The notes under the pieces are model-generated. The model worked only from the letters and a program-made list of their open reading frames with translations. It did not search any database and had not been told where the DNA came from. From Verrucomicrobiaceae bacterium (lineage in GTDB: Bacteria; Verrucomicrobiota; Verrucomicrobiia; Verrucomicrobiales; Verrucomicrobiaceae), in contig JAIBCL010000014.1 in the NCBI GenBank assembly GCA_019694165.1, positions 62,001 to 126,000 on the forward strand: 64,000 nucleotides of DNA. Reading direction: 5' to 3'. Each line of letters opens with the position of its first letter. Within the stretch, counting starts at the first letter, position 1. This document shows, piece by piece, positions 35,482 to 59,970 of the stretch. The translations under genes were made by a program, and so were the position numbers.

Positions 35482-36546
35482 TCACGATGCCGACAGATCT
35501 TCGTTAAAGAAGACCTTGATGAACTTCATGTCCCTCTTGTCGTCGTAGCCGCGCTCGAGCGCGGGGGCGGGCTGGTCAGGTGCGGCAGGCTTGATGTGGA
35601 TCTCGACTCCGGTGTCCAGCTTGATGACGGCACCGGCACGGCGCATGACCTTCTTGATGTCCTTTGGCGAGATCTCAAATGTCGTCTCCAGCGGCTGGCC
35701 GTGGTCTTCCTCCAACTTTGTGCGCTGGTCGGCGAAGCGGGCCTGCGCGTCGGGCGTCTTGAGCACCTTCTTCTCGAAGTCATCGAGGTCGAAGTGCTCA
35801 TGCTCATCGAAGTAGGCGATGACGTCACGGGCGGCGTGGCTCTGATCCTCGGGCGGGATCGTCTCGTCGAGATCGTGCTTCACGGCGGACACAGCCATGT
35901 CGGCAAAGGTGCGGGTGAGGAAGGCGGAGTCGGTCACGGCCTGCACGCCGAGGAACTCGCGCACCCAGAAGCGTGCATCGGCGCCGGCGCGGTCGAAGGT
36001 GAGCACGCAGTAGCCGCGCTGGGGCCAGTGGTTCAGGATGAGCGCGCCTTTGTCGATCTTCTCGGGATTGATGCCGTGCTCGGTGTGCAGCTTCAGGTCG
36101 CCGTCCTCGGCTGAGATGCTGAGGAAAGGGACGACGCTCTCGGATTTCAAGATGCAGATGGCCTGCGTCACCTCGCCTTCAATCTCGATGTCATCGACGA
36201 GCGCGATGCAGAGGTCGCCCGACTTGATGTTCGGGTGGTTCGACTTGGCGTGCAGCCGCTTTGCGATCTCGCACCCCTTCTTGTGGAGTTTGCCGGGAGC
36301 GGAAAAGATGTCGCCGCAGAGCTGGTTCATCTCGTGATGATCGAGCGATGAGTGGTGGAAGAAGCGGTGCGGGGCGAGATTCTTGAAGGGTTTGAGGAAA
36401 AGCGCGGTGAGCGTCTCGCGGTCGTCGTCCCCGACCTTGTACGCCGCCTTGGAAGTCTGCATGCCTTCGTCGCGCTGCGGATTGCCGACTTTGGCGAGCA
36501 CGAGACTGGTGACGGAGGCAGTATTGAAACGGATGTGGAGCGACAT
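35482..36546 (-). CDS. Nucleoid-associated protein, NdpA/YejK-like
   Basis: The protein of 354 residues starts MSLHIRFNTASVTSLVLAKV. It has the features of the 37-kDa nucleoid-associated protein family: an N-terminal alpha/beta part with KNLAPHRFFHHSSLDHHEMN, the central SGDLCIALVDDIEIEGEVTQ and FLSISAEDGDLKLHTEHGIN, then FDRAGADARFWVREFLGVQA and a helical C-terminus. YejK-type proteins associate with the nucleoid, and some members are linked to foreign-DNA or conjugation functions. The same frame remains open far upstream, antisense to the next gene; the start at 36546 is fixed by the family N-terminus. Confidence 0.8.
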   Translation of the reverse strand: MSLHIRFNTASVTSLVLAKVGNPQRDEGMQTSKAAYKVGDDDRETLTALFLKPFKNLAPHRFFHHSSLDHHEMNQLCGDIFSAPGKLHKKGCEIAKRLHAKSNHPNIKSGDLCIALVDDIEIEGEVTQAICILKSESVVPFLSISAEDGDLKLHTEHGINPEKIDKGALILNHWPQRGYCVLTFDRAGADARFWVREFLGVQAVTDSAFLTRTFADMAVSAVKHDLDETIPPEDQSHAARDVIAYFDEHEHFDLDDFEKKVLKTPDAQARFADQRTKLEEDHGQPLETTFEISPKDIKKVMRRAGAVIKLDTGVEIHIKPAAPDQPAPALERGYDDKRDMKFIKVFFNEDLSAS

Positions 36547-36738
36547 GGGGCGCGGAGAGTAGGAGGGAATCGCGCGGTGCAAAATGAATCGGTGGAATTT
36601 GTCGCGTGCATCGTGAAAGCCGGCGGCGGTGGATGTGAAAGCGTGCAAGACGACCGTGCCCCGGCTTGTTTCCCTCGGTGGAAAACAAACCCGCCTCGAA
36701 TCTTGAAAAGCTCCATTTGTCTTGTCCCTGACCCGCCG

Positions 36739-39063
36739 GTGCGCCGCCTTATGGCGCTCACGGCGTGTGCCGTCGCGCTCGCGTGCCCGGCATCGCGCGC
36801 AGCGTCCGCCCACCCCGGCGCGGTCATTTACAAGAAACTCTGCGCCGAATGCCACGGCGATCGCGGACAGGGCGTGGAAGACGAATACGACGATCCGCTC
36901 GCCGGCGAAAAATCCCTCGATGCTCTCGCGCGCTACATCGAGCGCACGATGCCGGACGATGATCCGAAGAAGTGCGTGGGCGAGGACGCCCGACAGGTGG
37001 CGGCCTACATTTACGATGCGTTTTACTCGCCCGAGGCGCAGGCGCGGCTGCATCCGCCGCAAAAAGACCTGGGCAGGCTGACGACAGATCAGTTCCGCAA
37101 CAGCGTGATGGACGTGATGGCGCGCTTTCGCATGGGACCGGGGTTCGACCGGCCCGTTGGCGGCGAGCCGGGGCTGAAGGCGACGTTTCGGGGCGTGGCG
37201 CTGCCAAAGCCCGGCGACAAGCCCGAGGACACGACGCCGAAGAAAGGCATCAAGGCGAAGCGACCGAACAAGACGATCGAGCGCACAGAGCCCGTGGTCG
37301 CGTTTCACTGGGGTGCGGACAGTCCGGTGAAGGACGTGCTGGAGGCGGAGCAGTTTCAAAATCGCTTCGAGGGCTGCGTGATCGCGGAAGAGACGGGCAT
37401 GTATGAATTCGCGGTGAAGAGCGAGAACGGCTTCCGCCTGTGGATCAATGACACGGACGAGGGTCACGCCCTGCTCGACGGCTGGGTGAGCGCCGGCCCC
37501 CAGGTGCGCGAGGAGAGAAAGAGCATCTTCCTCATCGGCGGCCGCGCCTTCCGGCTGGTGTTGGAGCATTTCAAATTCAAGGAGCAGTCCTCGTCCATCG
37601 AGCTGTGGTGGAAGCCGCCGCATGGCGTGAAGGAGCTGATCCCGGCGCACGCGCTGCGCACGGAGCGGCCGCGGGAGCTGATGATCGTAAAGACCGAGTT
37701 CCCGCCCGATGACAGCAGCGGCGGCTACGCGCGCGGCACCACGATTTCCAAGGCTTGGGATCAGGCCGTGACCGATGCAGCCATCTCGACCGCCGAACAT
37801 GTGGCGGACAATCTCGACGAACTCGCGCAGACGAAGGCCGGCGCGCCGGATCGTGCGGAGAAGCTGCGCAAGTTTGCGCGGGAGTTTGTCGCCACCGCGT
37901 TTCGTCGTCCGCTGAGTGACGAAATGCAGGACGCGTTCGTCGAGTCGCAATTCAGGGCGGCAAAGACAACTGAAACTGCGGTCAAGCGCGTGGTGATGCT
38001 GGCGCTCAAGGCGCCCGAATTCCTCTACCCAAACCTGCGCGAGAAGGAGGGCGTGAAGTCCGACGGGTTCGACGTGGCCTCGCGTCTCGCGCTCACGTTG
38101 TGGGACTCCGTGCCTGACAAGCGGCTCGCGCAAGCCGCCGCAGATGGAAAGCTGGGCACGCGCGACCAGGCAAGGGCGGAAGCGCAGCGCATGATCACCG
38201 ACTCCCGGGCGAAGGCGAAGATGCACGGCTTTTTTTACAAGTGGCTCGAGTTCGAGCGCGCGGAGGGCACGTCGAAGGATCCGAAGGTGTTCCCCGATTT
38301 CACGCCCGAGATGCTGGCCGATCTGCGCGGGTCATTGATGCAGTTCATCGACCAGGTGGTGTGGAGCGGAAAGTCCGACTACCGGGAGCTGTTGCAGGCC
38401 GATTACCTCCTGCTCAATGAGCGCCTCGGCAAATTCTACGGCAAGCCGGTGAAGGGCGATGAATTCCAGCGCGTGAGCTTCGACCCGAAGCAGCGTGCCG
38501 GCGTCGTGACGCATCCCTATCTCCTGGCTTCGCTCGCCTACACGAAGCAATCGTCACCCATACACCGCGGTGTCTTCCTCACGCGGAACATCGTCGGCAT
38601 GTCGCTCAAGCCGCCGATGAAGGCCGTGATCTTCGAGGACAGTCATTTCAACCCTGCGCTGACCATGCGCGAGAAGATCACGGAACTGACGCGGAGCGGA
38701 GGCTGCATGGCATGTCATCGGATGATCAATCCGCTCGGCTTCAGCCTGGAGAACTTCGACGCCGTCGGCCGCTGGCGCATGAAGGACAACAACAAGCCTG
38801 TCAACGCAGTGACCGACTTTGCCACCGACGAGGGCAAGACCGTCCACCTCACGGGTCCGCGCGACATCGTGAACTATGTGGCGGACAATCCAAGCGGCCA
38901 CCGCGCATTCATCCGCCATCTGTTTCACCATTTCGTCAAACAGGAGCCAATGGCTTACGGGGTCCCCACGCTCGACAATCTCCAGCGCGACTTCGCCGCG
39001 AACGGCTGCAACATCCAGCGACTGCTGGTGGAAGTCGCCGTCACGGCCGGCGAGGTGAAATAG
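36739..39063 (+). CDS. Exported cytochrome c / PA14 / DUF1592-type protein
   Basis: The protein of about 774 residues begins with a signal peptide (RRLMALTACAVALACPASRA). Next come a class-I cytochrome c domain with CAECH (residues 35-39), a PA14-like domain (about 190-310, with ETGMYEFAVKSENGFRLWIND), and the DUF1587/1592/1588/1585 tail. The tail carries FVATAFRRPLSD, RRNIV-type segments, GGCMACHRMINPLGFSLENF and a C-terminal helix. The second CxxCH (CMACH) is typical of this family. Such proteins are abundant in Planctomycetes and Verrucomicrobia and are thought to act in periplasmic redox or polysaccharide-related processes; the exact reaction is unknown. The usual DUF1552 partner is not next to it. 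The GTG start is chosen for its RR-rich n-region; ATG at 36751 is also possible. Confidence 0.85.
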   Translation: MRRLMALTACAVALACPASRAASAHPGAVIYKKLCAECHGDRGQGVEDEYDDPLAGEKSLDALARYIERTMPDDDPKKCVGEDARQVAAYIYDAFYSPEAQARLHPPQKDLGRLTTDQFRNSVMDVMARFRMGPGFDRPVGGEPGLKATFRGVALPKPGDKPEDTTPKKGIKAKRPNKTIERTEPVVAFHWGADSPVKDVLEAEQFQNRFEGCVIAEETGMYEFAVKSENGFRLWINDTDEGHALLDGWVSAGPQVREERKSIFLIGGRAFRLVLEHFKFKEQSSSIELWWKPPHGVKELIPAHALRTERPRELMIVKTEFPPDDSSGGYARGTTISKAWDQAVTDAAISTAEHVADNLDELAQTKAGAPDRAEKLRKFAREFVATAFRRPLSDEMQDAFVESQFRAAKTTETAVKRVVMLALKAPEFLYPNLREKEGVKSDGFDVASRLALTLWDSVPDKRLAQAAADGKLGTRDQARAEAQRMITDSRAKAKMHGFFYKWLEFERAEGTSKDPKVFPDFTPEMLADLRGSLMQFIDQVVWSGKSDYRELLQADYLLLNERLGKFYGKPVKGDEFQRVSFDPKQRAGVVTHPYLLASLAYTKQSSPIHRGVFLTRNIVGMSLKPPMKAVIFEDSHFNPALTMREKITELTRSGGCMACHRMINPLGFSLENFDAVGRWRMKDNNKPVNAVTDFATDEGKTVHLTGPRDIVNYVADNPSGHRAFIRHLFHHFVKQEPMAYGVPTLDNLQRDFAANGCNIQRLLVEVAVTAGEVK

Positions 39064-47829: not shown

Positions 47830-47973
47830 ATGACAGCCTTCTGGCACTTCCTCATCTGGGCCTGCGTCATTTGGTACTCCACGATCACGATCTACGTGGC
47901 TGTCCGCGGCGTGTCTGACATCCGTTCGATGTTGAAGCGCCTGCGCGAAGGCGCGCCTCCCGAGGAAGTTTGA
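47830..47973 (+). CDS. Small single-pass membrane protein
   Basis: The protein of 47 residues starts MTAFWHFLIWACVIWYSTIT. One transmembrane helix (about residues 4-24) is followed by a basic tail VRGVSDIRSMLKRLREG. A longer frame begins at 47713 but its first 39 residues do not look like protein. Small membrane proteins of this shape occur in the phylum; the function is unknown. It ends 10 bases before the left copy of the direct repeat. Confidence 0.6.
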   Translation: MTAFWHFLIWACVIWYSTITIYVAVRGVSDIRSMLKRLREGAPPEEV

Positions 47974-47982
47974 CGAGCCTGC

Positions 47983-48028
47983 ATTTCACCTCAGCGGCCT
48001 CCCGAGCAGTGTCGCGGTCGGCCCGGCA
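47983..48028. repeat. Left copy of a 45-nt direct repeat flanking the STAND gene
   Basis: This copy begins ATTTCACCTCAGCGG and contains GTCGCGGTC. It aligns to the copy at 53426-53470 with 40 of 45 identical positions and one single-base gap. It lies 50 bases upstream of the STAND gene ATG. It could be an insertion duplication, a recombination scar, or a shared upstream control element. Confidence 0.8.
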
Positions 48029-48077
48029 ACGGGAAAAACCGGTATCCGGGACGCGAAACAAGGGCTAGCCTCGCAGC

Positions 48078-51000
48078 ATGGTAAACGCTCCCGACCGTTT
48101 CGTGCCGCATGACCGCCAGATGCGCGTTTTCGTCAGCAGTACGTTCCGTGACATGCACGCGGAGCGGAACCACCTGGTGAAATTCATTTTCCCGCAGCTT
48201 CGCAAACTTTGCGAGTCACGTGGCGTGATGTGGGGCGAGGTCGATTTGCGCTGGGGCGTGACCGATGAAGAAGCCGCGGACGGCAAAGTGCTGCCGATCT
48301 GCCTGGAGGAAATCAAGCGCTGCCGTCCCTACTTCATCGGCATCCTCGGCGAACGTTACGGCTGGGTGCCGGAGTCGGTTTCCGTCGATCTTCTCGAACG
48401 AGAGTCGTGGCTGCAAAAGCAGCTTGCGGACAAGAAGTCCGTCACGGAATTGGAAATCGTCCACGGCGTGCTGCGCAATGCGCGGATGCATCAGCATGCG
48501 TGCTTTTACTTTCGCGATCCGAAGTTCGTGGAAAGCATGCCCAAGGACCGGAAGGCGGATTTCATGGCCGAGAGCCCGCAGCACGCCGAGCGGCTGGCGC
48601 GGCTCAAGTGCGAAATCCGCCGCGCGAGCCACCAACGGTTTTGCCGGCTGCGCGAGCCGTTCGCCAGCGCCGAGGAGCTGGGCCGCTGGGTGCTGGACGA
48701 TGTCACCGCCATCATCAACGACTGCTGGCCCGAAGGCTCGCAACCCGATCCGCTCGACCGCGAGGACGCGGCCCATCAAAACCACGCACGGAATCTTCGG
48801 ATGGGATTTGTCGGGCGTCTCGACGCGCTGAAGGAATTGAACGCATTCGGCGCGTCGGGCGGCGAGCCGCGCATCGTCTCCGGCGAGTGCGGAGCTGGAA
48901 AATCAGCCTTGCTCGCGACATGGGCACAAGAATGGCGTGCCAGCCACAAGGACGATGTCGTCATCGATCACTACGTCGGCGCCACGCCGGAGAGTTCCAA
49001 CTGGCGCGGGCTGGCAAGAAGGATTCTCGGTGAGCTGAAGCGCGCATTCTCGATGCCTGAGATTCTGCCGGAGAAGGATGAAGATTTGCGCGATGCCCTC
49101 GAGACCTGGCTGGCCAGGACCAGCGGACTCAATACCGTGGTGCTCGTACTCGACGCGCTCGATCAACTCTCTGAAGACGGCCAGGTCCCGGAAATCGGCT
49201 GGCTGCCCACCCAATTCCCCGCAAACGTCCGGCTGATCATATCCGCACAGCCTGGCAGCATGCTGGACGCCTTGCGCGACCGCCAGTGGGCCGAGCTGCC
49301 GCTTCCTCCGCTTCCGCAGCCGGAGATTGTGAGCGCGGCGATCTCCTATTTCGAATTCTTCGGCAAGCGACCTCCCTCGCAACTCCTGAGTCTGCTGGAA
49401 TCCACGCCAACGGCCGGCAACGCGCTCTATCTCCGCGCGGTCCTTGATGAACTGCGCCAGTTCGGCAGTCACGAAGATCTCACGGCGCGCGCCGCCTACT
49501 ACCTTGCGGCGTCGGATCTGCCGCAACTGTTCGAGCGCATTCTCACGAGGTGGGATGGCGACTTCGGACGCGATCCGCACTATCCGGACCTGGTGCGCCG
49601 CTCGCTGTGCTTGATCTCCTCGTCACGATCGGGGCTGCTGGAGAACGAGCTGCTGCTCCTGCTCGGCAAAGACGGCGAGCCTCTACCCCGTCGCACATGG
49701 ACGCCCCTGTTCCTGGCGATGGAACGCGCCCTGTCGTTGCACGAAGGATTGGCGGGAATCGGGCAGGAGCATTTCCGGGCCGCAATTCGCACGCGCTGGC
49801 TGCAGGACTCCAGCGCAGCGCGTGCTTTCCGCGAGGAACTTGCATCGTTCTTCAACCGGTCGGAGGATCCGGGCGATCGTGATCTCGACGTGCTGCCGTG
49901 GCTGCTCTTGAAGCTGGAGAACTGGGCCGAGGCGAGAAACCTCCTGACGAGAATCCCTGTCTTTCTGCGCCTGAGCAAGGCACGCACTGACGACCTGCTG
50001 GCCCACTGGCGGCTGCTCGGCCGGCATTTCAACCCCGCGGAGCACTACGAGGAGGCGCTGCAAAGCTGGATTGCCGCAGCGGCTCCTGGTCCGAACGAGA
50101 TTGCGGCCGCGCTCCGTTCGCTGGCCGGGTTCCATTCTTCACGTGACGAGACGAAACCTCAGGAGTCGCTGCTTCGGCGCGCCCTCGCCATCGACGAACA
50201 GCGCCTCGCGAACCACGACAAAGGCGCAGTCGCGGACGTGCTCGACGACAGCAGCTCGCTCGCGTTTCTGCTTGGGCACACGCACCGGCCCGAGGAGGCG
50301 GAGTCACTGCATCGGCGCGCGCTCAAACTCGCCGAGGACACTTTCGGCCCCGATTCAGAAAAGGCGATGAATCATGTGGAGGGTCTTGCGGCGTGGCTCT
50401 CGATGACCCGGCGATACGCGGAGGCGGAGGATTTGATTCAGCGCGCATTGGAGCGCTGCCGTCGCACCGAAGGCGAACATTCCGCCCGGGCGGTTTCCAT
50501 GCTCTCGATGCTCGGCCAGACGATGAAGGAGTCCGGCCGGCTGGCCGAAGCGGAAAAGGTCCTCCGCGAAGCCCTGGCCATCTGTGAAAGGACTCTCGAT
50601 GGATTCTCGGTTCTGCGCAGCAGTTGCATGAATCTGCTGGCCGGCCTTCTGTTTGAAACGGGAAGATTCTCGGAAGCCGAGCCGCTGATGCGCAAGACCC
50701 TGGAACTGGCGATCCACGACTTCGGAGAGCGGCACACGAGGGTTGCCACGGAACTCAACAATCTCGCCTTGCTGCTTGCCGCGAGCGACCGGGCTGCGCT
50801 CGCGCGGCCCCTGATGAAGGAATCCGCGCACATTCTCGCCGCCTTCACCCGCGCCAATGAGCACACCCACCTGAAGTTCCCCAACACGCTCGACGCCTAC
50901 GTCGGCGTTCTTTTCTCCTGCGGACTGCGGGGCGATGAGGTCGTGACCGAGATCAAGGCCATGGTGCCTGAGCTTTTTCCCGCCACCACCCATGGTGCCG

Positions 51001-53390
51001 GCGGCTTTTGCGCGCGGCATTGGATACTGCCGGCCATCGCCTGCGGCGACGCTTTTGCGCGACGCGACGAACACGAGGTCGCCAGATCTCTTTATCAGTG
51101 GGCGCTCGAAGGCTCGCGCCATTTGTTCGGAACCGATCATCCAGATTCACGCGATATCCTCCACCGGCTCGGAGGAGCCCTCTTTGGCTCGGGGAACTTT
51201 GCCGCGGCTGCAGCGCTCCTGCGCGAAATGCTGGCCGATTATCAGCAGCGCTTCGGACCCGATCATCCAGCCACGCTCGAAGTGATGCAAAACCTGGGTG
51301 GAGCGCTCATCGAGCTTGGTGAATTTTCGGAAGCCGAAAAATTGCTGCGCGCTGCCCTCGCGACGAGAGACCGCCTGGGAGAGATGGACTCGCGTGATGC
51401 GCTGACCATTCAGGGCAATCTGGCTGAACTCTGCCGCAGGAAAGGCGATCTCGAGGAAGCGGAGACGCTGTCAATCCGCGTGCTCGAACTCGCACGGCAG
51501 ATATCCCACCCAAATCTGGACTCCTTCGCTGACAACTATATCAACATGCTGGGCCGGCGTGGCATGTGCCAGGACGACATCCTCCGGCAGCTCCGGCGGC
51601 TCGTGCCCGACCTGATGGCCAGGCGCGGCCACTCCACTGCCGAAGAGAACCGCGCCTTTGAGCAGACCTACGGCCTCATTGCTGCCGCCGAGCAGCACCG
51701 GTCCACCGGCGATCTGACCGGCGCGCTACGGATTTTCAGGGAGGCGTATCAGGCGCGATTGAGAATCGCCAACGAACAACCCAGCCAGATCCACCAGTTC
51801 CATGGCGGGGCCGCTTTTGCGTTGATGCGCGTCGGTGAACTGCAGCGACAGATGGGGGACGATGGCGCGGCATCGGCTTCGTTCCGGGAAGCGCTGGAAA
51901 AGTTCGAGACAATCCTCTCCGCCAAGCCTGACGACGCTCCGTGCCTCTCAAACGTTGCCGCACTCTACGAGAGGATGGGCGATCTGGAACTGGACAAAGG
52001 GAACACCGCCAGCGCCGTGGAAAACTATCGCGCGGGCCTTGCCGCCGACGAGCGTCTCGCCGCCGTGCAGCCCGACAGTGCGCAAACTCGGCGCATGATC
52101 CTGGTCACTCGTGAGCGGCTCGGCGCCGCCCACATGTGCCGTGGTGATGAACTGGCGGGCACGGGACATGCCGAAGATGCGCTTCACAGCTATCGGCAGG
52201 GCCTCACCGAAAAACAGATGCGCAGTGAAGCAACAGATGACGAGGATGACCGGAACGATTTTCTCGCGTCGCTCAGGCGCGTGGTTGATTTTGCATCCAC
52301 AACGCCGTTCGCCGAGCAACAGCCGGGCGTGGCTTTCGATTTGGGCCGGCTGGCGATGTCGGTGCTCCATGCCGGCCATCTCGATGAAGCAGAGTGCCTG
52401 TTCCGCCGCGCTCTCGCATCGCACGAGCACCGGCACGGCGCATTCCATCCCGATGTAGGCAGGGCGCTCGACAACCTCGGCATGGCGCTCCTCAGCAAAG
52501 GCCGTGCAGCGGATGCCGAACCGCTGGTGCGCCGGGCTCTCGAAATCTTCGAGACGCGTCACTTCCACCTCCGCGGTGATTTGGCCGCCTGCCTGGACAA
52601 CCTCGCCTCCATCCTGCAAACGGAGGGGCGCTTCGACGAAGCCGAGACCGTGGCGCGGCGGGCGCTAGCGATATGGGAGGCTGCCTTGGGATCGGAGCAT
52701 CCCGATGTAGCCGTCTGCCTTGAAAATCTGGCGGCCCTGCTCAGAAAGAGCGGGCGTGCGGCGGAGGCAGTGCCGCTTCTCTCGCGCGTCTTCTCCATCC
52801 GCAAAGTGGCGTTCGGATGGCAGCATCCAAAGACGCTCCAGCCCCTTCAGACCTGCATCATGCTGCGCGAGTCACTCGGACACGACCGGGACGAAATCCG
52901 CCGGTTTCTCTGCGAATTGGCGCCCGAATTGGCTGAACTCGCGCGCCAGAGTGATCAGGCCGTCGCCGAAAGCGAAGCACTCGACCATCGAAATGACTCC
53001 CCACCGCAGATGACGCCGATGAGCCGCTCGACGGCGGCCGCTGCGCCCGCCACTCTGCCTCCGCCTCCGCCGCAGCCATCATCAACCGACGACCTGCGCG
53101 AGATGGCCGAACGCGCCTTTCACAAGTGCCAGTGGGAAGGCGCGGAGACCATGTACGGCCAGCTTGTCGAACGCGACGGCTCGCTCATTGCCGGCATCGG
53201 TCCCAAGATCGCCTCGTGCATCCTGTCAGCACACTCCAAACTCAGCGACTTCGACCGGCGGAAACTCGAACTCCTCACGCAACGTCTCGACCAGGCAGGA
53301 TGTGCCGAAATCGCGGACGACATCCGTCGGCAGATCGAGGAACGGGAGGCCATGAGTCAACCGAAGAAGCCGTGGTGGAAGGTCTGGTAG
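48078..53390 (+). CDS. DUF4062 - STAND NTPase - TPR protein
   Basis: The protein of 1,770 residues has three parts. Residues 15-110 form a DUF4062 domain (MRVFVSSTFRDMHAERNHLV, GEVDLRWGV, FIGILGERYGWVP). Residues 240-480 form a P-loop STAND NTPase: Walker A GECGAGKS at 269-276, and Walker B around Asp359 with the following DQL (VVLVLDALDQL). A winged-helix-like segment with SGLLENELLLLLG follows. From about residue 690 to 1600 there are many TPRs of the kinesin-light-chain type, with EAEPLxRRALEI and FGPDHP..T patterns. A Pro-rich linker and final repeat end in KKPWWKVW. The architecture resembles nephrocystin-3 and TEP1-like proteins. STAND NTPases act as inducible switches that oligomerise after ligand binding by their repeats. 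The N-terminal domain would be the effector or signalling part. A defence role is inferred. Confidence 0.9.
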   Translation: MVNAPDRFVPHDRQMRVFVSSTFRDMHAERNHLVKFIFPQLRKLCESRGVMWGEVDLRWGVTDEEAADGKVLPICLEEIKRCRPYFIGILGERYGWVPESVSVDLLERESWLQKQLADKKSVTELEIVHGVLRNARMHQHACFYFRDPKFVESMPKDRKADFMAESPQHAERLARLKCEIRRASHQRFCRLREPFASAEELGRWVLDDVTAIINDCWPEGSQPDPLDREDAAHQNHARNLRMGFVGRLDALKELNAFGASGGEPRIVSGECGAGKSALLATWAQEWRASHKDDVVIDHYVGATPESSNWRGLARRILGELKRAFSMPEILPEKDEDLRDALETWLARTSGLNTVVLVLDALDQLSEDGQVPEIGWLPTQFPANVRLIISAQPGSMLDALRDRQWAELPLPPLPQPEIVSAAISYFEFFGKRPPSQLLSLLESTPTAGNALYLRAVLDELRQFGSHEDLTARAAYYLAASDLPQLFERILTRWDGDFGRDPHYPDLVRRSLCLISSSRSGLLENELLLLLGKDGEPLPRRTWTPLFLAMERALSLHEGLAGIGQEHFRAAIRTRWLQDSSAARAFREELASFFNRSEDPGDRDLDVLPWLLLKLENWAEARNLLTRIPVFLRLSKARTDDLLAHWRLLGRHFNPAEHYEEALQSWIAAAAPGPNEIAAALRSLAGFHSSRDETKPQESLLRRALAIDEQRLANHDKGAVADVLDDSSSLAFLLGHTHRPEEAESLHRRALKLAEDTFGPDSEKAMNHVEGLAAWLSMTRRYAEAEDLIQRALERCRRTEGEHSARAVSMLSMLGQTMKESGRLAEAEKVLREALAICERTLDGFSVLRSSCMNLLAGLLFETGRFSEAEPLMRKTLELAIHDFGERHTRVATELNNLALLLAASDRAALARPLMKESAHILAAFTRANEHTHLKFPNTLDAYVGVLFSCGLRGDEVVTEIKAMVPELFPATTHGAGGFCARHWILPAIACGDAFARRDEHEVARSLYQWALEGSRHLFGTDHPDSRDILHRLGGALFGSGNFAAAAALLREMLADYQQRFGPDHPATLEVMQNLGGALIELGEFSEAEKLLRAALATRDRLGEMDSRDALTIQGNLAELCRRKGDLEEAETLSIRVLELARQISHPNLDSFADNYINMLGRRGMCQDDILRQLRRLVPDLMARRGHSTAEENRAFEQTYGLIAAAEQHRSTGDLTGALRIFREAYQARLRIANEQPSQIHQFHGGAAFALMRVGELQRQMGDDGAASASFREALEKFETILSAKPDDAPCLSNVAALYERMGDLELDKGNTASAVENYRAGLAADERLAAVQPDSAQTRRMILVTRERLGAAHMCRGDELAGTGHAEDALHSYRQGLTEKQMRSEATDDEDDRNDFLASLRRVVDFASTTPFAEQQPGVAFDLGRLAMSVLHAGHLDEAECLFRRALASHEHRHGAFHPDVGRALDNLGMALLSKGRAADAEPLVRRALEIFETRHFHLRGDLAACLDNLASILQTEGRFDEAETVARRALAIWEAALGSEHPDVAVCLENLAALLRKSGRAAEAVPLLSRVFSIRKVAFGWQHPKTLQPLQTCIMLRESLGHDRDEIRRFLCELAPELAELARQSDQAVAESEALDHRNDSPPQMTPMSRSTAAAAPATLPPPPPQPSSTDDLREMAERAFHKCQWEGAETMYGQLVERDGSLIAGIGPKIASCILSAHSKLSDFDRRKLELLTQRLDQAGCAEIADDIRRQIEEREAMSQPKKPWWKVW

Positions 53391-53425
53391 CCGCTCGCCA
53401 TCGGCTCGGGCGATTGATCGTCCGT

Positions 53426-53470
53426 ATTTCACCTCAGCGGATTCCTGAGCAGCGTCGCGGTCAGCCGGCA
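53426..53470. repeat. Right copy of the 45-nt direct repeat
   Basis: This copy starts ATTTCACCTCAGCGG and aligns with 47983-48028 (40/45 identical, one gap). It begins 36 bases after the STAND gene stop and ends 20 bases before the ATG at 53491. The distance between the copies is about 5.44 kb, exactly the STAND gene and its upstream leader. Confidence 0.8.
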
Positions 53471-53490
53471 GTTGTCGGAGGCGCGGCCAG

Positions 53491-54969
53491 ATGGCCGGTT
53501 GGCCCGATGACCAGCAGGACTTCATTCTCCATTCCCGGCCGGTACAGCGCAGCCCGGATTCCGATGTGACTGCGACCTACGCCAGCCCCGCCGTGCGCCA
53601 GCGCCTCACCGAGTTCCTCGGCGGGGATACGCTGGATCATGCCACGGCGGTTTACATCACCCGCACCGACGGCTGCGGATTCGACCGGCGCGACCTGCGC
53701 CCTCCAGCCGAGTTGGACTGGTATCTCGATCGCGATCTCGACATCGCCCGCTCGCTCGCGGACTCGGCTTCGCTGCTGATGCATCTGGATCTCGAGTACG
53801 TGAACTTTGACTCACCGGCGGAGGCGTTTGTCGATCCGTGGCGGACCTTCGATCTTCAAGAACCCGCCGTGCGCGTGATCGAGACGCTGCTGCTCGAGTG
53901 GGGCATCCGGCCGCTGCACATCGTCACGGGCCAGGGGCACCACTTCGTGTGGCGCGTGGCGCGCACATCGCCGGTCGCAAAACACATGGCCTCTCTTTCA
54001 CCCGCTCCGGAGCTGGTGGATGCATGCCAGATCCGCATGCCGCCCATTCTGGCGGGCCGCATCGACCGCGACACGCACGGCGCGTTCGCCGCGCTCTCGC
54101 TCATCATGGAATTCGTCGCGCACCGCGTGAAGGAGCTGGCCGCGCCGCTCTGCGCGCTGCCGGTCGAGGTCACGGCCGTGCACGTCGGCCCGTGCGTGTC
54201 GCGGCAGCGTGAGATGATCTCCATCGACATCTCCGAGTACGGCGATCCGCTGCAGACGCGCATGATCCGCGCGCCGTTCACCAATTACCTGAAGCCGTGG
54301 GTCACCGGACTCGCGCGCTCGCTCGGAGTCGAGGGCGAGATTCCCACCTTTCCTGCGATCCCGCTGCACGAGATGGACATCCGCCAGGCGATCACGCTGC
54401 GGCAGGTCGAGGGAGAGGTGCATGATCTCGCGCGCCGCGCCTGCGTGCGCATCCCGGAGCAAAACGACGGCACGGCGCGGCTGATGGAAGCCTATCTCGC
54501 GTCACGGCTGCGGCGGTTTCACGAGTTCTACTACTCGGCGCGTCACGACGCGAAGGATCGATGGCCCGATACCTACGCACGCACGCCGCTCGATCCGCTG
54601 CCGCCGTGTGTGCATCGCGTTCTGGAGTGGCCAAACGATCTGCTGCTCAAGCCGGCGGGCATCCAGCTTGTCACCCGCACTTTGCTGGCCGCGGGCTGGC
54701 ATCCACGCCACATCGCGGGCCTCATCCGCTCGAAGTTCGAAGACGCCGGCCATCACTGGGGCGTCAGTTGGGACGACTATGAGCCGGCCACGCGCGCGGA
54801 CTTCTACACACGCCTCTTCGCCGGCCTCCATCTCACCGGCCTCGACAAGCTCGTCGATTTCAACTGCACCTCGAACCGCGAAAAAGGCTTCTGTTTCCCG
54901 CCGCCAGATGCCATGTGCAGCCTCGAACCCGCGCGGCACGCGCTTCTCTCCAAACTTCCCCATGTCTGA
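53491..54969 (+). CDS. Archaeo-eukaryotic primase (AEP)-like protein
   Basis: The protein of 492 residues is preceded by GGAGG nine bases before the ATG, a good ribosome-binding site that decides the start. Three motifs fit the AEP catalytic pattern: LMHLDLEYVN (Asp100 and Glu102, motif I DxE), HIVTGQGHHFVWRV (His150 and His151, motif II) and MISIDIS (Asp246, motif III), followed by RMIRAPFTNY. The C-terminal half has a helical region, VHRVLEWPNDLLLKPAGIQL, like a primase C-terminal helical domain, and a cysteine-containing tail. AEP enzymes make primers or fill gaps in DNA. The overall similarity to named families is weak, so this is a motif-based call. It overlaps the next gene by eight bases. 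Confidence 0.55.
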   Translation: MAGWPDDQQDFILHSRPVQRSPDSDVTATYASPAVRQRLTEFLGGDTLDHATAVYITRTDGCGFDRRDLRPPAELDWYLDRDLDIARSLADSASLLMHLDLEYVNFDSPAEAFVDPWRTFDLQEPAVRVIETLLLEWGIRPLHIVTGQGHHFVWRVARTSPVAKHMASLSPAPELVDACQIRMPPILAGRIDRDTHGAFAALSLIMEFVAHRVKELAAPLCALPVEVTAVHVGPCVSRQREMISIDISEYGDPLQTRMIRAPFTNYLKPWVTGLARSLGVEGEIPTFPAIPLHEMDIRQAITLRQVEGEVHDLARRACVRIPEQNDGTARLMEAYLASRLRRFHEFYYSARHDAKDRWPDTYARTPLDPLPPCVHRVLEWPNDLLLKPAGIQLVTRTLLAAGWHPRHIAGLIRSKFEDAGHHWGVSWDDYEPATRADFYTRLFAGLHLTGLDKLVDFNCTSNREKGFCFPPPDAMCSLEPARHALLSKLPHV

Positions 54970-55801
54970 CTGGCCCATCGGCTTCTCCACCGGCTGCTTT
55001 TATCAGCGCAGCATCTTCGACGTGCTCGAAGAAATCCAGCGCAGCGGCTTTCGCGAGATCGAGGTGTGCTCGTTCCCGAAGCATCTCGATTATCACAACG
55101 AGGAAAACGTGCGCCGCGCCGGCGAGCGGATGCGCGAGCTGAACCTGCGGCCGTTCTCCCTTCACGCGCCGCTGGCGCCCAGCATCGACATCACATCACC
55201 CGATGACGGCGCGCGCCATGCGTCCGTCGCCGAGCTGGTGAAGGCGTGCGAGTCCGCCGCGCTCATGGGCGTGGAGCACATCGTGCTGCATCCCGGCCCC
55301 GAGCGCGAGGGCCGGCCGCCGCAGGAGGAATTCGTCCTGCGCATGAGGCACGCCGCGGAATCACTGAACCGCGTGGCCGCGCGCTGCTGCGAGCTTGGCC
55401 TGCATCTCGTACTGGAAAACATGCTGCCGCACCTCCTCTTCGGCCATGTGAGCGACATGATGTACCTCCTCGGCGAGATCAAGAACTGCGACGTCGGCAC
55501 ATGCCTCGACACGGGACACGCCTTCCTCGCCGGCGAGATGGGCATGGTGATCAACAAGCTCTCCGGCCATCTGAAAATGGTCCACATCAATGACAACCGC
55601 GGCGACTGGGACTCGCACCTCCCGCCCGGCGAAGGCCGCATCGACTGGCCCTGGGTGCTCGGCGAACTCAAACGCTCAAATTTTAACGGCCAGCTCGTGC
55701 TCGAACTCCACGGCGGCGAGCACGAGCCCGCGCGCGAGGTCATGTCCCGCGCCGTGCGCGCACGCGAGCTTCTCTCCGACATCATGCGCCGGGAGGCGTG
55801 A
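54962..55801 (+). CDS. TIM-barrel protein, AP endonuclease 2 / sugar isomerase family
   Basis: The protein of 279 residues starts MSDWPIGFSTGCFYQRSIFD. It has the xylose-isomerase-like TIM-barrel pattern with metal ligands in typical places: VEHIVLHPGPERE, LHLVLENMLPHLL (Glu), GTCLDTGHAFLAG (Asp and His), MVHINDNRGDWDSHLPPGEG (His and Asp) and LVLELHGGEHE (Glu). The family includes sugar-phosphate isomerases and epimerases as well as endonuclease IV; sequence alone does not say which. Its ATG lies inside the end of the primase-like gene, so it is translationally coupled. A repair nuclease would fit the neighbourhood, but that is inference. Confidence 0.85.
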   Translation: MSDWPIGFSTGCFYQRSIFDVLEEIQRSGFREIEVCSFPKHLDYHNEENVRRAGERMRELNLRPFSLHAPLAPSIDITSPDDGARHASVAELVKACESAALMGVEHIVLHPGPEREGRPPQEEFVLRMRHAAESLNRVAARCCELGLHLVLENMLPHLLFGHVSDMMYLLGEIKNCDVGTCLDTGHAFLAGEMGMVINKLSGHLKMVHINDNRGDWDSHLPPGEGRIDWPWVLGELKRSNFNGQLVLELHGGEHEPAREVMSRAVRARELLSDIMRREA

Positions 55802-55847
55802 GCTTGCACTGACCGGCCGCACGCAACACAATGAGGCGCAGCAGGCC

Positions 55848-56708
55848 ATGACCGAGAACCAGCAGATCGCAGGCAGTCTCGAAGAAGTGTCGCGCATCCT
55901 CGCCGAGCAGGGCGCGAACCGCTTCCGTGTGCAGGCCTACGTTCACGCCGCCGATGCGCTGCGCGCCATGGCGGAGCCCGCCTCGCTCGTGCTCGAGCGC
56001 GAGGGGCTCGACGGCCTGGAGAAAATCCCCGGCGTCGGCGACACGATCGCACATGTAATCCGCGACATCATCCAGCACGGACGCTCCGCCATGCTCGACC
56101 GCCTGCGCGGCGAGAGCGATCCCATCGCCTTGCTCTCGTCCGTGCCCGGCATCGGGAAGAACACCGCGTGGAAGCTGCACGATGAACTCGGCATCGAGAC
56201 GCTCCAGGAACTCGAAGCCGCCGCGCACGACGGACGCCTCGCCTCCCTCTTCGGCTTCGGCCCGAAAAAACTCGCCGGCATCCGTGACACGCTCGCGCAG
56301 CGCCTCGGCCGCCTGCGCCAACCGCCGCCCCGGCCCTCGAACGAGCCGTCGATCGCCGAAATCCTCGACGTGGACCGCCAGTACCGCGACGACGCCCGCG
56401 CCGGCAAGATCAAGCTCGTCGCACCCAGACGCTTCAATCCCACCGGCGAGGCCTGGCTCCCCGTCATGCACACCACGCGCGGCCCGCGACACTACACCGC
56501 GCTCTTCTCAAACACCGCCCGCGCCCACGAACTCGGCACCACGAACGACTGGGTCGTCCTCTACTACGACGGCGACAAAACCGAGCGCCAATGCACCGTC
56601 ATCACCTCCACCTTCGGCCCCCTCAAAGGCCGCCGCATCGTCCGCGGCCGCGAAGGCGAGTGCGCGATGTTTTACGACGAGACGACTGGCCATGACGAGG
56701 ACGACTGA
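55848..56708 (+). CDS. Helix-hairpin-helix protein related to the N-terminus of PolX
   Basis: The protein of 286 residues starts MTENQQIAGSLEEVSRILAE. The first 170 residues resemble the N-terminal helical region of DNA polymerase X: GANRFRVQAYVHAADALRAM, then two helix-hairpin-helix motifs, LEKIPGVGDTIAHVIRDI and LSSVPGIGKNTAWKLHDELG, then FGFGPKKLAGI. The nucleotidyltransferase palm and PHP domains of PolX are missing. The C-terminal 100 residues (from about NPTGEAWLPVMHTTRGPRHY to FYDETT) are not recognised. A structure-specific DNA-binding role is likely. It follows the TIM-barrel gene by 46 bases and closes the operon. Confidence 0.8.
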   Translation: MTENQQIAGSLEEVSRILAEQGANRFRVQAYVHAADALRAMAEPASLVLEREGLDGLEKIPGVGDTIAHVIRDIIQHGRSAMLDRLRGESDPIALLSSVPGIGKNTAWKLHDELGIETLQELEAAAHDGRLASLFGFGPKKLAGIRDTLAQRLGRLRQPPPRPSNEPSIAEILDVDRQYRDDARAGKIKLVAPRRFNPTGEAWLPVMHTTRGPRHYTALFSNTARAHELGTTNDWVVLYYDGDKTERQCTVITSTFGPLKGRRIVRGREGECAMFYDETTGHDEDD

Positions 56709-57139: not shown

Positions 57140-59554
57140 TCATGACGAGCGGCGGCGCTTCGATGGCGCGCGCTTCAACCTCTTCGCCACGGGCGGCTCG
57201 AGGGCTTCGCGCAGCACTTCGTCCACAGTCTCCACGGGCACGATCTTCAGGCGCTGCCGCACTTCCTCGGGCAGGTCGGGCAAATCTTTTTCGTTGAGCT
57301 TCGGGATCAGTATCTTTTTGATCCCGGCACGCAGCGCGGCGATGGATTTTTCCTTGAGACCGCCGATGGGCAGGACAAGGCCGCGCAACGTGACCTCGCC
57401 GGTCATGGCCACGTCCTTGCTGACGGGCCGGCTGGAAAAAAGCGATGCAAGCGCGGTGAACATCGCAATGCCGGCGGAGGGGCCGTCCTTCGGCACGGCA
57501 CCGGCGGGGACATGGACGTGCACTTCGTGCCGGTCGAAATCTTTCGGCTCGATGCCGAGCTGCTTCGCACGGCTGCGCACGAGGCTGTAAGCGGCGCGGA
57601 CGGACTCCTTCATCACATCGCCGAGCTGGCCGGTGAGAGTGACGCCGCCTTTGCCGGGGAAGCGGATGGCCTCGATGTGCAGCACGTCGCCGCCCGCGGT
57701 GGTGTAGGCGAGTCCGGTGACGACACCCGGGGCGCTGGTCTGAAGCCTGCTCTCCCGCACAAAGTACGCCGGGCCGAGCGCCTCGCGCACGACAGCAGGC
57801 GTGATCGCGGCCTCGCCGATCTCATCGCCGGCGATGCGCGCGGCGACGTGGCGCGTCACGCTCGCGATCTGCCGCTCGAGATTTCGCACGCCAGCCTCGC
57901 GGGTGTAGTCCTCGATCACGCGCTCGATGGCAGCGTCCTCCCAGCGGCACTTCTCCGCGCTGATGCCATGCTCGGCGAGCTGGCGCTTCACGAGGTAGCT
58001 GCGTGCGATGTTGAGTTTCTCGCTCTCGGTGTAGCCGGGCAGCTCGACGACCTCCATGCGGTCGCGCAACGGCGGCGGGATGGTATCGAGCGTGTTGCAT
58101 GTGGCGATGAAGATGACCTGCGAGAGGTCGAAGGGCACGTCGAGGTAACGGTCGGTGAATTCGTGGTTCTGCCGCGGATCGAGCACTTCGAGCAGCGCGC
58201 TGGCGGGATCACCGCGGAAGTCGGCGCCGAGCTTGTCGATCTCGTCGAGCATGATGACGGGATTGCGCGTGCCGAGCCGGCGCAGTTCTTGAATCAAGCG
58301 TCCCGGCATCGAGCCGATGTAGGTACGCCGATGGCCGCGGATCTCCGATTCGTCACGCACGCCGCCGAGGCTGATGCGCGCAAATTTGCGGCCGAGCGAT
58401 TCGGCGATGGACTGGCCGAGGCTCGTTTTGCCGACCCCGGGCGGTCCGAGAAAGCAAAGGATCGGCCCTCTGCCGGCTGGGTTGAGCTTTCGCACGGCGA
58501 GGTACTCGACGAGGCGCTTCTTCACCTTCGCAAGACCGAAGTGGTCCCGATCCAGTATCTCCCTCGCCTTGTGCAGGTCCACGCTCTCCTCGCTGACCAC
58601 GCTCCAGGGCAGCTCTGCCATCGTCTCGAGATAGCTTACGATGACGGAATGATCCGGACTCTGCGGGGGGATGATCTCGAGCCGCTTGAGTTCCCGATCC
58701 GCCTGCGCACGCGCTTTCTCAGGCAGCGCGGCTTTGTCGAGGCGCTGGCGGATGTCCTCGACCTGCTCTTCGTTGCCGCCTTCCTCGCCGAGTTCTTTTT
58801 GGATCGCGCGAAGCTGCTCGCGCAAATACGCGCGCTTCTGTGCTTCGGAAAATCCGCTCTGCACGTTCTCGCGCAGCTTCGACTGGAGTTCGGCAATGTG
58901 GAGCTGGTTGTCGAGATGCGACTGAAGCGCAGCCAGACGTGCCTTCACATCGGTGGTCTCCAAGAGCCTCTGCTTCCCGGCGGTCTCGATGCTCAGATGC
59001 GCGGCGAGAAAGTCGGTGAGCGCGCCGGCATCTTCGACGGATGCGAACACAGCCTTCACCTCGTCCGGCACGTCGGGGCGATGCTCCAGGAGCCTCTGCG
59101 CGGACTCGCGCACATTGCGCGCGGCGGCCTCGGACATCTCATCGTCCTTGGCGATGGCCGTGCTCGCGAGCGTCTCCACTTCGGCCTTCAGATACGGCTC
59201 CTCCTGCACGGCGTGCAGGATTTTCATGCGGCTCTCGCCGTGGACGAGGATGACCACGCTGTTGTCGCCCTGCCGCATCATGCGCACGACGCGGGCGATG
59301 ACTCCGTGATCGTGGAGCGAGTCGAGGCCGGGCGAGTCCGCGGCTTTTTCTTTTTGCAGTGCGAGGCCGAGCAGCTTCGACTGCGGCAGGCTCTCCTCGA
59401 GCAGACGCAGGCTCGATGCGCGGCCGATGCTCAGCGCCTGGATGGTGCCGGGGAACACAATCGTATCGCGCAGCGGCAGGATGGGCAGCACCTGTTTTCC
59501 ATCTTGCGCGCGTCCGGCGGTTGATTCGGCGGGGCTGATCTCGTTTTCGCTCAT
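57140..59554 (-). CDS. lon: ATP-dependent Lon protease
   Basis: The protein of 804 residues starts MSENEISPAESTAGRAQDGK. The LAN substrate-binding domain starts with VLPILPLRDTIVFPGTIQAL. The AAA+ core has Walker A FLGPPGVGKTSLG and Walker B NPVIMLDEIDKL. The protease domain has Ser in PKDGPSAGIAMFTAL and Lys in LPIGGLKEKSIAAL. Lon degrades misfolded and regulatory proteins in the cytoplasm. The ATG overlaps the stop of the upstream hsp20 gene (ATGA), so both are expressed together. The C-terminus has a basic extension, KRLKRAPSKRRRSS, longer than usual. Confidence 0.97.
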   Translation of the reverse strand: MSENEISPAESTAGRAQDGKQVLPILPLRDTIVFPGTIQALSIGRASSLRLLEESLPQSKLLGLALQKEKAADSPGLDSLHDHGVIARVVRMMRQGDNSVVILVHGESRMKILHAVQEEPYLKAEVETLASTAIAKDDEMSEAAARNVRESAQRLLEHRPDVPDEVKAVFASVEDAGALTDFLAAHLSIETAGKQRLLETTDVKARLAALQSHLDNQLHIAELQSKLRENVQSGFSEAQKRAYLREQLRAIQKELGEEGGNEEQVEDIRQRLDKAALPEKARAQADRELKRLEIIPPQSPDHSVIVSYLETMAELPWSVVSEESVDLHKAREILDRDHFGLAKVKKRLVEYLAVRKLNPAGRGPILCFLGPPGVGKTSLGQSIAESLGRKFARISLGGVRDESEIRGHRRTYIGSMPGRLIQELRRLGTRNPVIMLDEIDKLGADFRGDPASALLEVLDPRQNHEFTDRYLDVPFDLSQVIFIATCNTLDTIPPPLRDRMEVVELPGYTESEKLNIARSYLVKRQLAEHGISAEKCRWEDAAIERVIEDYTREAGVRNLERQIASVTRHVAARIAGDEIGEAAITPAVVREALGPAYFVRESRLQTSAPGVVTGLAYTTAGGDVLHIEAIRFPGKGGVTLTGQLGDVMKESVRAAYSLVRSRAKQLGIEPKDFDRHEVHVHVPAGAVPKDGPSAGIAMFTALASLFSSRPVSKDVAMTGEVTLRGLVLPIGGLKEKSIAALRAGIKKILIPKLNEKDLPDLPEEVRQRLKIVPVETVDEVLREALEPPVAKRLKRAPSKRRRSS

Positions 59555-59970
59555 GACAATCCCTCCCGGCTGGCAATTGGCAGCGTGATCCAGAGCCAGC
59601 CGTTGTCCTGCCGCGCGGTGACGCGGTCGGGATCGACATCGGCGGCGAACTCGATCACACGCTCGAAGTCGCCGTCGGCGATCTCCATCACGAGGATGCG
59701 CCCCTCGCGCGGTGCCGCGCCGCTCTCCGGCAGCGCGCGGTGGCCACGGATGGCGAGGCGGCGCGGCTCGACGTCCACCTTGATGTCCTGTTTGCGCACG
59801 CCGGCGAGATCGACGCACACCTCGATGCGTTCAGCGCCTGCGTACACATTCACCGCCGGCTGCCATGCGGCCTCGGCCTGGCGCAATGAAGAGAAGTGCA
59901 GCCCCTGGAGCTGCGCGGCGATCTGGTCCGCCATGGAGGCGATCCGGGTGAGTCTGATGCTGCGTGCCAT
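59551..59970 (-). CDS. Small heat-shock protein, Hsp20 family
   Basis: The protein of 139 residues has the alpha-crystallin domain from about residue 35 onwards: WQPAVNVYAGAERIEVCVDL, AGVRKQDIKVDVEPRRLAIR and VIEFAADVDPDRVTARQDNG, with the conserved final strand WLWITLP. It is an ATP-independent holdase that keeps unfolding proteins soluble. Coupling to lon (ATGA overlap) joins holding and degradation of damaged proteins. The gene is transcribed divergently from a membrane protein gene. No CIRCE element was noticed in the 185-base divergent region. Confidence 0.93.
   Translation of the reverse strand: MARSIRLTRIASMADQIAAQLQGLHFSSLRQAEAAWQPAVNVYAGAERIEVCVDLAGVRKQDIKVDVEPRRLAIRGHRALPESGAAPREGRILVMEIADGDFERVIEFAADVDPDRVTARQDNGWLWITLPIASREGLS

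Follow-up and report, generated by a model that had tools for sequence, protein, structure and literature searches.

A four-gene cluster with a conserved two-gene core

The window analysed here is a stretch of 64,000 nucleotides (nt) from a Verrucomicrobiaceae bacterium (assembly GCA_019694165.1, contig JAIBCL010000014.1, positions 62,001 to 126,000 of the forward strand), within which four open reading frames, here called genes A to D, follow one another on the + strand. Gene A (48078–53390) encodes a DUF4062-NACHT/STAND protein of 1770 residues with tetratricopeptide repeats (TPR); gene B (53491–54969) a predicted member of the archaeo-eukaryotic primase (AEP) superfamily that belongs to no named family; gene C (54962–55801) a TIM barrel of the AP_endonuc_2 family; and gene D (55848–56708) a protein whose N-terminal region is of the helix-hairpin-helix (HhH) kind found in PolX/Pol-beta. 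A preliminary description, made from the sequence alone, had read these genes as one undescribed module in which the STAND protein senses a ligand and the set acts on DNA or nucleotides. It placed the four same-strand frames correctly, including the tight packing of the last three (genes B and C overlap by 8 bases, and gene D begins 46 bases past gene C), and its family assignments for genes A, C and D agree with those of a domain search. An alternative start codon for gene B, GTG at 53572, lies close to the start of most of its relatives.

Comparison with other genomes reveals that the conserved unit is a two-gene operon, B–C. Our best reading, in which the function is inferred, is that this pair represents a stress-linked base-excision or gap-repair operon.

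Gene B is a predicted AEP outside the named families

The AEP superfamily is defined by motif I (hhhDhD/E), motif II (sxH) and motif III (hD/E), as set out in PMC5862659. All three occur in gene B, as HLDxEY at nt 53782, TGQGHH at nt 53926 and SIDISEY at nt 54220, and the primase-like motifs reported in the preliminary description are thus borne out. In an alignment of the window with 50 of the 80 loci described below (51 sequences in all, with the broken copies of genome G048 left out), three residues, D73, H124 and D219, never vary, while E75 is retained in at least 90% of the sequences. A structure model built from these 51 sequences (pLDDT 93.5, pTM 0.93) has an AEP fold. The five highest-ranking Foldseek matches to this model are all Prim-PolC chains (best E 0.002), and upon realignment the best structure is mycobacterial Prim-PolC with gapped DNA (6sa0_A; Z 16.6 over 244 residues, 3.4 Å, 16% identity), followed by LigD polymerase domains (Z 15.5 and below), CRISPR-associated Prim-Pol (Z about 13) and the eukaryotic and archaeal primases PriS/Prim1 (Z about 10–12). 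These alignments mostly cover residues 1–311, so that the C-terminal part of gene B is barely tested by them; this long helical part, of about 160 residues, is one respect in which gene B differs from Prim-PolC.

Homology of gene B to the LigD Prim-Pol sequence family was considered and rejected, as a profile comparison with hhalign returned a probability of 0.1% and no Pfam family matches gene B at E ≤ 1. Searches of PADLOC and NCBIfam at the same threshold were likewise without a match, and none of the 51 family members matches a PHROGs profile at E ≤ 0.01. Given intact AEP motifs and an AEP fold in the model, without a profile link to LigD Prim-Pol, we regard gene B as an AEP by fold and motifs that constitutes a separate family by sequence.

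Gene C carries the ligands of a putative three-zinc site

Gene C matches AP_endonuc_2 with E 2e-40. Its putative zinc ligands are H68, H110, E152, D183, H186, H208, D217, H219 and E248, and none of the nine columns varies among the 44 aligned sequences, which comprise the window and 43 of the 77 loci that carry gene C (L081, which has an inner stop in its gene C stretch, was left out). In a profile alignment, each of the nine pairs with a ligand of endonuclease IV (EndoIV) from M. tuberculosis (5zhz), for which we assume the customary ligand numbering and roles. Eight of them also pair with a second barrel encoded at locus L109, in which the counterpart of H68 is shifted within a loop; we take this protein to be of the EndoIV type from its motifs as judged by eye, Pfam assigning it to AP_endonuc_2. 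In EndoIV, three-zinc sites of this kind hydrolyse phosphoesters.

Gene C thus has in common with EndoIV (Nfo) both the TIM barrel and the nine ligands, and it differs from EndoIV in the loop after the first ligand, in its score against the NCBIfam nfo model (41.6 bits, far under the cut-off of 129.65) and in its closer structural resemblance to another protein. That protein, the uncharacterized, D-tagatose 3-epimerase-like MJ1311 (3wqo), is the closest solved structure both by sequence (E 5e-33) and by VIA-align (Z 32.5), and Foldseek ranks D-tagatose 3-epimerase chains alongside it. EndoIV chains are absent among the best 50 fold matches of gene C, which is no argument against kinship. We know of no AEP partner of MJ1311, and found no literature on this protein among open-access PMC papers. 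The best NCBIfam match of gene C is CbiR, at 63.2 bits against a cut-off of 105. This cobamide phosphodiesterase, a member of the same AP endonuclease 2 superfamily, possesses conserved His/Asp/Glu metal residues according to PMC7733943.

Among 14 genomes picked by hand from the 19 that carry gene B, no Nfo was detected above the cut-off, and the 15 weak Nfo matches all fall on gene C itself; the Nfo model was the one used, ExoIII not being sought. Other barrels of the AP_endonuc_2 superfamily are present in genomes with gene B.

Genes B and C form an accessory operon

Two collections of loci were used to define the unit. The first comprises 20 gene B loci, namely that of the window's own genome and 19 distributed over 18 relatives, and gene C lies directly downstream of gene B in all 19 of the latter. 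The second was obtained by a profile scan of named genomes, in which 80 of 83 relatives, identified via two short peptide patterns, were kept; here gene C directly follows gene B in 77 loci, with gaps that span −28 to +132 nt when L111 is set aside. Two of the three loci without gene C (L080 and L123) are on contigs that stop inside gene B, which leaves L107 as one genuine exception; the L107 genome has one weak match to gene C. Of the 77 copies, that of L111 consists of only the last 70 residues and that of L132 is cut by a contig end. Over 75 of the 77 loci, the protein distances of B and C are correlated (r 0.81, a value reached in 0 of 999 permutations), a result that would also be expected from shared inheritance alone.

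Ten NCBI phylum labels are represented among the 80 loci, namely Verrucomicrobiota (59), Planctomycetota (6), Acidobacteriota (6), Thermodesulfobacteriota (2), Fibrobacterota (2) and five others with one locus each, and loci that stand alone for their phylum may be mis-binned contigs. In the kin set, 19 of 57 genomes possess gene B; in a phylum-wide sample, 10 of 387 do. Both counts include the window's own genome, and two of the ten match only part of the profile. B–C is therefore accessory. In G048 (L046 and L092), a frameshift or stop interrupts gene B. Searches of 50,697 phage records and 72,556 plasmid records gave no match to gene B, nor was a relative found in viral contigs. The pair looks chromosomal and patchily distributed.

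Stress and repair genes near the operon

From 68 of the 80 loci, 344 neighbour genes were selected, of which scans covered first 124 and then 111; these encode proteins of up to 1,100 residues, and the gene calls are longest-frame guesses. The commonest Pfam family near B–C is Usp, which accounts for 8 of the nearest 124 neighbour genes and 9 of the next 111; it is followed by HSP20 (4) and P-type ATPases (3) in the nearer set and by response regulators (4) in the second. For 39 of the 80 loci, chosen for diversity, expected frequencies were derived from genome-wide counts in the 39 genomes, with rounded genome sizes. Usp genes lie near 12 of these loci against 0.80 expected (tail 4e-12), and HSP20 genes near 7 against 0.35 expected (tail 4e-8). 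Loci were counted with an iterated hidden Markov model (HMM; E 1e-6) and genomes with Pfam at E 0.001, a difference that makes the enrichment test stricter. The Usp label requires 13 changes on the gene B tree, and hence the Usp context is not one inherited neighbourhood. Ribosome-hibernation-type genes occur near 4 of the 80 loci. In the window, genes for a Lon protease (57140–59818) and an Hsp20 small heat-shock protein (59551–59970), both on the − strand downstream of gene D, provide a similar stress context.

Gene D encodes 286 residues in which a domain search identified HHH_8 and HHH_5, a region it shares with the N-terminus of bacterial PolX; it differs from PolX in that the search returned neither a polymerase nor a PHP domain, and its C-terminal part is without a family match. 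By tblastn, gene D lies near B–C in 5 of the 80 loci (L057, L058, L059, L075 and L127), directly after gene C in L059, as in the window, and separated from it by a P-type ATPase gene in L057 and L075. An iterated HMM search seeded with gene D recovered only two loci because its gene calls are longest-frame guesses. One other locus among the 19 relative loci has a match, and close homologues (E 1e-148 or better) are confined to 2 of the 57 genomes, the window's own and G027, in both of which they reside within about 9 kb of B–C. A second HhH match on the window's own contig lies elsewhere, in a 655-residue frame. Gene D represents an occasional third member of B–C.

Other repair genes appear at individual loci. 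At L107, which lacks gene C, a gene of the uracil-DNA glycosylase superfamily (PF03167, E 3e-9; L107:6350-7096) stands directly behind gene B; two Ku genes are located upstream, and a fragment of a LigD polymerase lies at the end of the contig. Homologues of this LigD fragment and of Ku were found in 1 of the 80 loci, L107 itself, and LigD and Ku are thus no regular neighbours of the pair. At L110, an Fpg gene is located 1.7 kb upstream of gene B. Genome-wide, matches to ATP-dependent ligases were found in 19 of 19 genomes with gene B versus 20 of 38 others.

A possible role in DNA repair

A useful comparison is offered by the mycobacterial Prim-PolC system, in which an AEP polymerase works with an EndoIV-type enzyme. 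According to PMC5663958, EndoIV is the end-processing nuclease that most benefits Prim-PolC/LigC repair in vitro, LigC co-purifies with EndoIV used as bait, and repair by Prim-PolC, LigC and EndoIV is linked to stationary phase. Mycobacterial Prim-PolC favours gaps of 1–3 nt, which it fills with ribonucleotides, as stated in PMC7442782. B–C differs from that system in that the fixed operon partner of the polymerase is the EndoIV-type gene, not a ligase.

This partnership, together with the occurrence of the same kinds of enzymes in one operon, is the basis for the order of events that we propose. At a damaged or abasic site, gene C, as a three-zinc phosphoesterase, would clean or open the 3′ side; gene B, as an AEP polymerase, would then fill the short gap; and a ligase, probably an ATP-dependent one, would seal the nick. 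Where it is present, gene D might bind the gap via its Pol-beta-type HhH motifs, and the operon as a whole would serve stressed or non-growing cells. DNA as the substrate of gene C, the bound zinc, gap filling by gene B, the use of a ligase and the order of the steps are all inferred. What was observed in favour of the proposal is the conserved pairing of the two genes, the AEP fold and motifs of gene B, the nine metal ligands of gene C, the lack of a further Nfo-model match in the 14 genomes, the glycosylase gene at L107 and the excess of stress genes nearby; the Fpg gene at L110 and the HhH kind of gene D also fit it. On balance, we slightly favour the view that B–C is a chromosomal, patchily distributed DNA-repair operon comparable to the Prim-PolC/EndoIV branch of base excision repair and suited to cells under stress or not growing; more generally, the pair probably mends damaged DNA in stressed or resting cells.

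Several observations weigh against this view. With respect to gene B, no Foldseek match reaches E ≤ 0.001, no PDB sequence matches at E ≤ 10, and the hhalign result leaves it without sequence-level similarity to LigD Prim-Pol; moreover, the window's own genome has no LigD Prim-Pol, and neither do five more of the 18 gene B genomes searched. In the mycobacterial blots described in PMC5663958, Prim-PolC itself bound only LigC1 and not EndoIV. The fold of gene C is nearer to MJ1311 and to sugar epimerases (Z about 30) than to EndoIV, and MJ1311 keeps the nine ligands but is not known to possess the DNA groove of EndoIV. At L109, the EndoIV-type gene lies 1 kb from gene C, so that gene C is not always a stand-in for EndoIV. 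Both proteins are acidic, with net charges of −9 for gene B and −12 for gene C. Repair genes near B–C are few (those at L107, L109 and L110, and gene D at its five loci) and were counted without a computed background. Within the family, the association with ligase is weak (16 of 16 versus 14 of 20, p 0.02), and the two ATP-dependent ligase matches of the window's own genome are themselves weak (E 2e-8). Finally, the stress families entered the enrichment test after the neighbours had been seen.

A bolder form of the repair hypothesis, which we put forward tentatively and hold to be doubtful, is that B–C, with or without gene D, amounts to an excision-repair pathway that is complete in itself, as yet undescribed, and used by resting bacteria of some ten phyla, in which an AEP fills the gaps, possibly with ribonucleotide patches in the manner of Prim-PolC, and an MJ1311-type three-zinc barrel takes the place of EndoIV. 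Among the open-access PMC papers listed by literature searches, no operon that pairs an AEP with an EndoIV-type enzyme came to light. If such a pathway exists, it would supply the first function for the MJ1311 kind of protein, it would represent an operon-encoded route of short-gap repair in environmental bacteria under stress or in dormancy, and an orphan TIM-barrel family could have its function tested by way of its AEP partner.

Alternative explanations

The features that set gene C apart from EndoIV could also be accommodated if the substrate of gene C were not damaged DNA but an RNA end or a small molecule resembling a nucleotide, and gene B were a nucleotidyltransferase for the same substrate, the pair then serving RNA repair or nucleotide turnover. 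The closeness of the fold to MJ1311 and the epimerases, the acidity of gene C, the hibernation-type genes at four loci and the fact that the best, though sub-threshold, NCBIfam match is a cofactor phosphodiesterase are all compatible with such a role. This explanation is harder to reconcile with the glycosylase-type gene that stands behind gene B in L107 without gene C, with the closeness of gene B to a Prim-PolC bound to a gap, and with the lack of any Nfo-model match besides gene C in the 14 genomes, and we judge it unlikely. More improbable still is an anti-phage defence pair, in which the AEP and a nuclease would attack or copy invading DNA. Patchy spread of the kind observed for B–C would suit a defence function, and AEPs do occur in CRISPR loci, as exemplified by the CRISPR-associated Prim-Pol among the fold matches of gene B. 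A scan of the nearest 124 neighbours also yielded matches to nine PADLOC models, the strongest of them to MzaA (2 genes, E 9e-25) and BrxL (1 gene, E 4e-16). However, each of the nine accounts for at most two genes, counted without a background, the commonest neighbours are stress genes, and no match was obtained among phages, plasmids and viral contigs. Genes A, B and C themselves do not match PADLOC, gene D giving one weak match (OGG, E 0.002).

The absence of B–C from mobile-element collections also bears on whether gene B might be the replication primase of an integrated element. Precedent for this comes from the bacterial AEPs of the PrimPol-PV1 supergroup, which sit nearly always in mobile elements according to PMC5862659. 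In contrast to these, gene B looks chromosomal and is tied to one enzymatic partner across ten phylum labels. The phage, plasmid and viral-contig searches yielded no relative, and neither an integrase nor a replicative helicase occurs among the recurrent neighbour families (the best 25 of 120 and the best 25 of 129), all of which makes an origin of this kind very improbable. We give even less credence to the original proposal of a STAND-controlled conflict module composed of all four genes, which had in its favour the same-strand adjacency of the genes in the window and the DUF4062-NACHT-TPR architecture of gene A. As a conserved unit, this module is already refuted by synteny. The N-terminal 600 residues of gene A match only at their own locus and at none of the 19 relative loci, of which three (L005, L038 and L051) are short, so that absence there says little, and gene A is beside gene B in none of the 80 loci of other genomes (flanks of up to 8 kb). 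Homologues of its first 507 residues were found in 3 of 57 genomes, its own included; of the other two, G028 lacks gene B, and G048 has them on a different contig from gene B. With 13 DUF4062 matches in the window's own genome, 11 of them above the cut-off, such proteins are also numerous there. Thus, of the co-occurrence that the preliminary description proposed to look for, the B–C part is kept elsewhere, whereas gene A accompanies B–C only at its own locus. The idea that genes B to D act on DNA is probably right, but the part of sensor assigned to gene A is not borne out. That description had itself named, as an outcome that would count against the module, the failure of genomes outside close relatives to keep the STAND gene beside its partners, and no other genome examined does so; a second such outcome, a three-gene set occurring everywhere as housekeeping genes, is at odds with the patchy distribution of B–C.

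Gene A and other features of the window

Gene A comprises DUF4062, a NACHT/AAA domain with a Walker A motif at residue 269 and a long TPR array. It is framed by two direct copies of a 41-nt repeat on the + strand (36 of 41 positions identical), one upstream of the gene at 47983–48023 and the other between genes A and B at 53426–53466; position 47983, from which the module was originally delimited, is thus the first base of a repeat element and not a gene start. A 26-base pattern taken from the repeat, with up to three mismatches allowed, occurs at these two places only, and no third copy was found in the genome. The third-position GC content of gene A is the lowest of the four genes (0.745, versus 0.828–0.874 for the others). 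The simplest reading is that gene A was inserted upstream of gene B.

A 47-residue open reading frame (47830–47973) lies just upstream of the first repeat copy and has no convincing match near gene B in other loci. Within gene A, residues 13–185, which correspond to DUF4062 (48114–48632), match a domain of known structure in telomerase protein component 1 (11gz_A, E 1e-35), and this match provides a lead on the role of DUF4062 in bacterial STAND proteins. Elsewhere in the window, positions 35482–38226 encode a protein of 914 residues with a match to the 37-kD nucleoid-associated family in its C-terminal third.

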